Position numbers and translations under genes: made by a program. This document shows, one piece after another, positions 30,834 to 32,064 of a stretch of DNA of 32,981 nt. This stretch comes from Gammaproteobacteria bacterium (GTDB lineage: Bacteria > Pseudomonadota > Gammaproteobacteria > Steroidobacterales > JABDMI01). The stretch spans positions 1 through 32,981 of the forward strand of contig JABDMI010000009.1 of assembly GCA_013001575.1 (NCBI GenBank). The letters are read 5' to 3'. Each line of letters starts with the position of its first letter. Positions within the stretch are counted from its first letter, which is position 1. The notes beneath the pieces are model-generated. The model saw only the letters and a list, made by a program, of their open reading frames with translations, searched no databases and was not told the DNA's origin.

Positions 30834-31487
30834 TCAAGCGCCTCCTTTGTTTTTATATTTAACGGCATTATTCACGATCAAGTCACCACCTTTGGCTCCA
30901 GGTACTGCACCCTTGATCAATAACAGATTGCGTTCCGCATCGATCTTGACCAGCTCAAGGTTTTGATTGGTAGTGCGTTCTGCACCCATGTGGCCCGCCA
31001 TTTTCTTGCCTTTGAAAACACGACCCGGGGTTTGGTTTTGCCCGATAGAACCCGGCGCACGATGCGCGAGCGAGTTACCGTGGGTAGCGTCTTGCATACG
31101 GAAGTTCCAGCGCTTAACACCACCCTGGAAACCTTTACCGATTGAAGTGCCGGTCACATCGACCTTTTGACCCTCATTAAGAGTTTCAACCGTAAACTCT
31201 GTACCAACTTCGATATCGGCAGCGTCATCGTCTAGACGGAATTCCCACAAGCCACGACCGACTTCCTGGTTTGCCTTGGCGTAATGCCCGGCAACCGCTT
31301 TGGTGACACGTGAAAGTTTACGCGACCCGGTGGTCACTTGAACTGCACTATAACCATCGTTTTCCACAGTTTTAACCTGTGTCACGCGATTCGGTAGTAC
31401 TTCCACAACTGTCACTGGCACGGATTCGCCCGCATCAGTAAAAAGTCGTGTCATGCCGCATTTGCGACCTACTAGCCCAATAGCCAT
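30834..31487 (-). CDS. rplC: Ribosomal protein L3
   Basis: A 217-residue 50S assembly-initiating protein. [18 protein letters not shown] and [19 protein letters not shown] are hallmarks; the second contains the Gln methylated by PrmB in E. coli. A good AGAGG ribosome binding site precedes the ATG by 8-9 bases. Unusually, 265 bp separate it from rpsJ, with a promoter and a terminator-like hairpin in between. Confidence 0.98.
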
Positions 31488-31608
31488 GTGTTTATACCTC
31501 TGTCCTCGGAGCCTGCTATGGCGCCCGTCAACGTAAAAATCTGATTTTGTTGCACTTTTGAAGCCTGATTAGAGACTCGTAAGTTATTGACAAATCAAGT
31601 TTTTTTGC

Positions 31609-31641
31609 AAAAAAAACACCCGTGCACAAATCGACACGGGT
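31609..31641 (-). terminator. Terminator or attenuator hairpin upstream of rplC
   Basis: On the minus strand the stem ACCCGTG/CACGGGT (31635-31641 with 31618-31624, 10-base loop) is followed by G and then eight T residues (31616-31609). It lies about 120 bp upstream of rplC and about 50 bp downstream of the promoter-like TATAAT. A terminator inside a leader is the pattern of transcription attenuation. It could instead simply end rpsJ transcripts. Confidence 0.65.
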
Positions 31642-31696
31642 ATTTCTACTAAATTTTAATTCCGACCAACGATGTGCCGGTTAATGGTAGCCCACT

Positions 31697-31724
31697 ATTA
31701 TAACAACTTTTTGGCTTACCGCAA
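31697..31724 (-). promoter_or_regulatory. Strong candidate promoter between rpsJ and rplC
   Basis: On the minus strand TTGCGG (31724-31719) and a perfect TATAAT (31702-31697) are 16 bp apart. The inferred start is near 31690, giving a leader of about 200 nt before rplC. The leader contains the hairpin with a T-run at 31609-31641. Confidence 0.6.
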
Positions 31725-31726
31725 TA

Positions 31727-31746
31727 CCCAAATCCATAGATTTGGG
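31727..31746. repeat. Perfect hairpin just after rpsJ
   Basis: The inverted repeat CCCAAATC-N4-GATTTGGG (8-bp arms) begins 6 bp beyond the rpsJ stop. There is no T-run on the minus strand, so it is more likely an mRNA 3'-end stabiliser or processing site than a full intrinsic terminator. Confidence 0.6.
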
Positions 31747-31752
31747 CTTTAA

Positions 31753-32064
31753 TCAGTTCAACTTGATCTGAACGTCCACACCAGTGGGCAATTCCAGCTT
31801 CATTAAGGCATCAACCGTTTTATCGGTTGGCTCAACGATATCCATCATGCGCTTGTGGGTACGGAGCTCATATTGATCTCGTGCGTCTTTATTAACATGT
31901 GGCGAGATCAAAACAGTAAAACGCTCTTTTTTGGTCGGCAAAGGAATAGGTCCTTTCACACGAGCACCAGTGCGTTTAGCGGTTTCAACGATCTCTTTGG
32001 CCGACTGATCGATCAATGCGTGATCGAATGCTTTCAGACGGATGCGAATATTTTGATTCGCCAT
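31753..32064 (-). CDS. rpsJ: Ribosomal protein S10
   Basis: A 103-residue 30S head protein, also the NusE subunit of antitermination complexes. [44 protein letters not shown] and the loop [19 protein letters not shown] are diagnostic. The ATG at 32064 is chosen over the in-frame TTG at 32076: a GGAG ribosome binding site fits it and the length equals E. coli S10. It lies 63 bp after tuf and is separated from rplC, so it may be co-transcribed with tuf. Confidence 0.97.

Follow-up and report, generated by a model that had tools for sequence, protein, structure and literature searches.

Organization of the rpsJ–rplC region

The end of the window (the whole stretch of 32,981 nucleotides that was analysed) is occupied by a minus-strand cluster of translation genes, tuf–rpsJ–rplC–rplD–rplW–rplB, in which rplW is assigned by position. 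rpsJ, coding for S10 (NCBIfam PRK00596/TIGR01049), spans positions 31753–32064; its ATG start codon at 32064, preceded by GGAG, is preferred to the TTG start of a longer, mechanically called open reading frame reaching 32076. rplC, coding for L3 (NCBIfam TIGR03625), lies at 30834–31487 and heads the block rplC–rplD–rplW–rplB and onward. The two genes, both on the minus strand, are separated by exactly 265 bp (31488–31752), and the sequence coordinates confirm the arrangement given in the preliminary description, with a hairpin, a promoter and a second hairpin with a T8 run following one another in this gap. All gap features listed below are on the minus strand.

Directly 3′ of the rpsJ stop codon there is a perfect 8-bp hairpin, CCCAAATC-TATG-GATTTGGG (31746–31727), devoid of a T-run. 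A hairpin of another sequence, GTCAGTT-TTAATC-AATTGAC, occupies the same place in the congener (locus L003), and the structure likely serves the upstream transcript as a 3′ end or as a barrier, a function proposed from its sequence and position. It is followed by the putative promoter (31724–31697), comprising the −35 element TTGCGG (31724–31719), a 16-nucleotide spacer and the −10 element TATAAT (31702–31697), and then by the discriminator AGTGGGCT. From the distance to the −10 element, transcription is predicted to start at about 31690, which would give an rplC leader RNA of ca. 203 nucleotides (31488–31690). Within the leader lie H1, a weak promoter-proximal hairpin ACCGGCACATCGTTGGTCGG (31661–31680), identical in the congener, and an intrinsic terminator or attenuator (31643–31609, dG −14.4), composed of the stem-loop ATACCCGTGT-CGATTTGT-GCACGGGTGT (31643–31616) and a T8 run, the end of which at 31609 is 121 nucleotides ahead of the rplC start codon. 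Closer to rplC, alignment with the congener delineates a 7-bp hairpin with one bulged C, CGGGCGCC-ATAGCA-GGCTCCG (31506–31526), and a putative ribosome-binding site, AGAGG (31497–31501), is situated 9 nucleotides before the ATG.

On the other side of rpsJ, the tuf–rpsJ gap is 63 bp long and has no evident promoter, and the idea that rpsJ is carried on the tuf transcript would be compatible with such a gap. The tuf–rpsJ gap also contains a hairpin of ten pairs, three of them G-U, followed by GCTTTTGTTA (32118–32096), which could be a weak terminator or a pause site and could also part rpsJ from tuf.

Properties and conservation of the promoter and terminator

Dinucleotide shuffling of the gap sequence gave a terminator as good as the native one in 0.3% of cases, and in 0.03% when a stricter cut was applied; of the ten such sites in the 33-kb window, only one is more stable. 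The partition function gives its stem a pair probability of ca. 1.0 within the leader, and the search for a competing antiterminator fold in the leader by the same means revealed none, the terminator stem staying near probability 1. Since there is no strong competing fold, termination would be the default state and read-through would set expression. An alternative fold in which H1 pairs with the terminator arm was abandoned, as on inspection by eye it is not kept in the congener.

The promoter taken alone does not exceed chance: its −35 element is weak, with 3 of 6 consensus matches, 43% of the shuffles score equally, and TATAAT alone occurs in 11% of them. Its credibility comes from its conservation in relatives and not from a single-sequence score. 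A consensus scanner overlooked both the promoter and the terminator owing to its narrower cut-offs; with the same narrow cut-offs it detected no promoter-like site between the terminator and rplC, and transcripts from the gap promoter must consequently cross the terminator.

L003 is the only congener carrying the locus, so the conservation of the terminator is assessed in a single pair of sequences. The segment from the −10 element through the T-run (31702–31609, 94 nucleotides) is 88% identical in the two (84 of 96 alignment columns), with both the hairpin and the T-run intact, whereas identity at fourfold-degenerate sites amounts to 36% in rpsJ and 46% in rplC. The rest of the gap shows 47% identity before the −10 element and 54% after the T-run, conservation falling off immediately past the latter; the last 22 nucleotides, with the putative rplC ribosome-binding site, are 77% identical. 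The much higher identity of the module than of the fourfold-degenerate sites and flanks argues for purifying selection acting on the promoter and the terminator as a single unit.

The rpsJ–rplC gap in the order

The gaps were extracted from 118 genomes representing 16 families of the order to which the window belongs, and range from 68 to 715 bp. TATAAT is present in 83 of the 118 gaps (4.4 expected from shuffles), and a TATAAT-like sequence with GGCT within 6 nucleotides, N(1-6), in 79 (0.35 expected). The window conforms to the order motif TATAATnnnSGGCT, with TATAATAGTGGGCT at 31702, and in many genomes of the order a −35 element TTGAAC overlaps the last rpsJ codons. The preliminary assertion that rplC and the genes following it have a promoter of their own is thus supported by the conservation of this promoter across the order. 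A stable hairpin after the start site is also an order-wide property (mean z −2.8 over 95 genomes); H1 is the positional counterpart of the strong GGCCCGG…CCGGGCC hairpin of the relatives, although in the window it is weak (z −1.1). Some relatives have a boxA-like motif in GGCTCTTTA, but it was dropped from consideration, as it is not kept in most families.

Conservation of the terminator in relatives is split: the hairpin and T-run are kept in the congener, but most of the order lacks the T-run, terminators of this kind being found in only 10 of the 118 gaps (3.1 expected). Among 23 rplC leaders from the whole class, strict terminators are situated upstream of the H3 hairpin described below in six (0.1 expected). 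The T-run attenuator therefore reads as something that individual lineages have repeatedly added to an rplC leader of general occurrence.

In Enterobacterales the gap is 10–38 bp long, with about 12–38 bp in the named genomes (Vibrio, Shewanella, Colwellia, and others) and 32 bp in E. coli, while in Pseudomonas, Marinobacter, Oceanospirillum, Salinicola, and others it is 71–146 bp. The special separation of rpsJ from the rest of the operon, proposed earlier for this DNA, does not hold, since in the order rpsJ and rplC usually lie far apart with a promoter between them, the short gap is typical of Enterobacterales, and a leader in the gap is common outside that group.

Two further features were noted in gaps of the order. 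The Woeseiaceae-like loci L194, L214, L215, and L234 have gaps of 350–700 bp with long inverted repeats in which GGAATGGCTC…GCTTTATTTCC is the basic unit; a palindromic element appears to be repeated here between rpsJ and the promoter. In family f15 (L008, L055, L065, L076, L078) the central part of the rplC leader has a conserved pairing of another kind, GGGTCAG…GGCTGACC, possibly another leader type.

Structured rplC leaders in related bacteria

In many relatives, which share with the window the same gap and the same conserved promoter, a hairpin termed H3 is located just ahead of the rplC ribosome-binding site. It consists of a 7-bp stem with a C-G or U-A closing pair and the loop CAAUYGNA, and at seven of its eight pairs both partners vary; its covariation score is 0.764, compared with 0.268 for shuffled and at most 0.143 for slid alignments, and it rises to 0.885 with class-wide members added. 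When the H3 model built from the order was run on 369 genomes of the class, it produced 30 matches, 24 of them in the rpsJ–rplC gap right before rplC, of which 23, in 14 families, lie outside the order. Two further families, with a Betaproteobacteria-like L3 start, came from a sample of the whole phylum and bring the total outside the order to 16; by our own assignment on the basis of the L3 start, these two are apparently Betaproteobacterial. The H3 loci upstream of rplC (L229–L247, L249–L252, L258, L289, L290, and L294) thus come from many Gamma- and apparently Betaproteobacterial families, and in the Woeseiaceae-like family f7 there are two tandem copies. The model also matched sites away from rplC (L248, L253–L257, L291–L293, and L295–L298), which are probably chance hits or coding sequence. 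Equating H3 with 23S rRNA nucleotides 786–794 (CCAATCAAA) was considered, but the segment is too short for a test.

The H3 model does not find the hairpin with the CAAUYGNA loop in the window. The congener has H3 (18.0 bits) together with the terminator, whereas the window has the T8 terminator without H3; in the alignment of the two the H3 3′ arm is replaced by another hairpin, that at 31506–31526, which occupies the H3 place of the relatives and has no H3 loop. The loop and 3′ arm of H3 would have disappeared from the window.

A leader of another kind is found in Pseudomonas and its allies, in the same gap and ahead of the same downstream operon. There, positions around 330–384 of the LSU rRNA model are matched by the gap with E values down to 1e-7, and, in the reverse direction, a model of the Pseudomonas-type leaders finds E. 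coli 23S rRNA nucleotides 285–358 (41.5 bits, E 8e-9), a segment which we take to be the domain I region bound by L4. E. coli 23S rRNA served as the reference, as the assembly from which the window comes has no 23S gene. The loci with such a mimic comprise L217 (1937–1985), L193 (1936–1990), L182 (1935–1997), and others of alignment A2, from Pseudomonas, Oceanospirillum, Salinicola, Marinobacter, and other genera. When the class was searched with the mimic model, 28 of the 30 loci obtained were true 23S genes and the remaining two were rplC leaders. Unlike the Pseudomonas-type leaders, the window does not copy 23S nucleotides 285–358, and neither the mimic model nor this LSU segment matches the window or 57 other loci of the order. 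Nor does the window leader contain a decayed 23S mimic in its 3′ part (GTGCAAC…GGGCGCCATAGCAGG), which scores 1.2–3.3 bits.

Relation to known ribosomal protein leaders

The feedback control of the S10 operon by L4, a textbook case, has been regarded as a late acquisition of the enteric branch. The leader in E. coli, an L4-controlled attenuator with the HD and HE hairpins upstream of rpsJ, resembles the window in that a ribosomal protein operon has its own promoter and, in its leader, an intrinsic attenuator, which in the window is a predicted one. The two differ in that the E. coli leader precedes rpsJ, so that S10 is inside the operon, whereas the leader of the window starts after rpsJ and S10 is outside. 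Model searches found no HD/HE-like element in the window, and for an HE-like L4 recognition hairpin there is no R1/R3 match in it (best 5.2 bits), while the congener does match. H3 and the E. coli S10-leader hairpin CCCAUCAAUCGUAAUGGG (L228, 4821–4838) agree in their closing pair and in the loop CAAUCGNA, and the match between them reaches 14.7 bits (E 0.0013 over 401 nucleotides). Its weight is lessened by the Vibrio and Shewanella S10 leaders checked, in which the CAAUCGNA-type HE loop is absent, and the link between H3 and the E. coli loop stays a lead.

A review describes L4- and NusA-dependent termination in the structured 5′ UTR of the S10 operon, with competition from 23S rRNA, and the E. 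coli-like site as not conserved in Pseudomonas (PMC10931766). An earlier search, as summarised there, covered the S10 leader and not the gap following rpsJ. The leaders discussed here are the same kind of element as published ribosomal protein leaders (e.g., Eckert and Weinberg 2020, PMC7247131; the rpsJ motif RLC-47-1, PMC11109978); in the accessible portion of a published table of such leaders, rplC has an entry only for Archaeoglobi, and our literature search for an rplC, L3, or L4 leader found none. The comparison with Rfam suggested in the preliminary description brought no ribosomal leader to light, as no Rfam 15 family exceeds its gathering threshold in the window and none matches in 12 relatives; neither H3 nor the 23S mimic as a leader is catalogued in Rfam 15.

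Proposed function and alternative explanations

The gap probably constitutes the own promoter of rplC and the intrinsic attenuator leader of an operon starting at rplC. RNA polymerase would start at about 31690 and, on the way through the ca. 203-nucleotide leader, would meet the intrinsic terminator within ca. 80 nucleotides; a part of the transcripts would, as we infer, end there, and the fraction reading through would set the mRNA supply of the genes for L3, L4, L23, L2, and those that follow, a large block that could in this way be turned down separately. The earlier statement that the leader can terminate early agrees with the presence of an intrinsic terminator in the path of transcription, in a module conserved in the congener. 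Control, if any, would most likely be exerted by a factor that targets the polymerase while it pauses or terminates; free L4 is the preferred candidate, given the parallel with the S10 leader of E. coli. L4 is suggested by three analogies, namely with the E. coli operon, with the 23S mimic carried by Pseudomonas and its allies, and through the CAAUCGNA loop shared by H3 and CCCAUCAAUCGUAAUGGG. The structured leaders in the gaps of sister lineages, H3 or the 23S mimic, are as expected of an autogenous leader. The attenuator reading is countered by the weak −35 element, by the single congener to which the comparison of the terminator is confined, by the rarity of T-run terminators in the order, and by the lack of any recognised protein-binding element in the window, where the H3 and 23S-mimic models give no match. 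The suggestion of L4 sensing, as it was first made for this leader, is accordingly one of analogy, and L4 control in the window itself seems plausible but rather less likely than not. Nothing in the analysis bears on NusE dosage or antitermination, so the supposed importance of uncoupling NusE (S10) gains no support from it.

The strong intrinsic terminator downstream of rpsJ might instead be chiefly the 3′ terminator of the tuf–rpsJ transcript, that is, a means of insulation, with the rplC promoter merely lying upstream of it and read-through being constitutive and unregulated. This explanation accords with the failure to recognise an antiterminator or a protein site, and with most of the order being devoid of the T-run, so that regulation needs none. 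However, an insulator would be expected upstream of the promoter, where the 8-bp hairpin is indeed located, yet without a T-run, whereas a terminator past a conserved promoter would throttle very abundant mRNAs; furthermore, the promoter and the terminator are conserved together. We regard insulation as unlikely, albeit the most serious of the alternatives.

The compactness of the conserved unit, bounded by a promoter and a terminator and followed by an abrupt drop in conservation, would also suit a separate RNA of ca. 80 nucleotides, acting in trans or as a protein sponge, but no other rplC promoter is evident downstream and the relatives keep the promoter and leader contiguous with rplC, without a T-run, which makes this explanation very improbable. 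Least credible, and already disfavoured, is a chance assembly of features in a neutral spacer: the ease with which shuffles equal the promoter score speaks for it, while the order-wide conservation of the promoter and the high identity of the module against saturated neutral sites speak against it.

Of greater interest than the attenuator of the window itself is the broad occurrence of uncatalogued rplC leaders. It is conceivable, at a little short of even probability, that across much of Gamma- and Betaproteobacteria outside Enterobacterales the rpsJ–rplC gap is an uncatalogued autogenous leader site, holding the CAAUYGNA hairpin in many lineages and a near-copy of the L4 region of 23S rRNA in Pseudomonas and its allies, with L4 as the ligand of both and with the attenuator added in the genus of the window. 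If so, L4 control of the rplC operon would be far wider than has been held. If the gap leaders are the ancestral or alternative control points, S10 (NusE) would escape the feedback in most of the bacteria concerned, and it would be clear why Pseudomonas has no leader of the E. coli type, the earlier search having dealt with the S10 leader and not with the gap after rpsJ.
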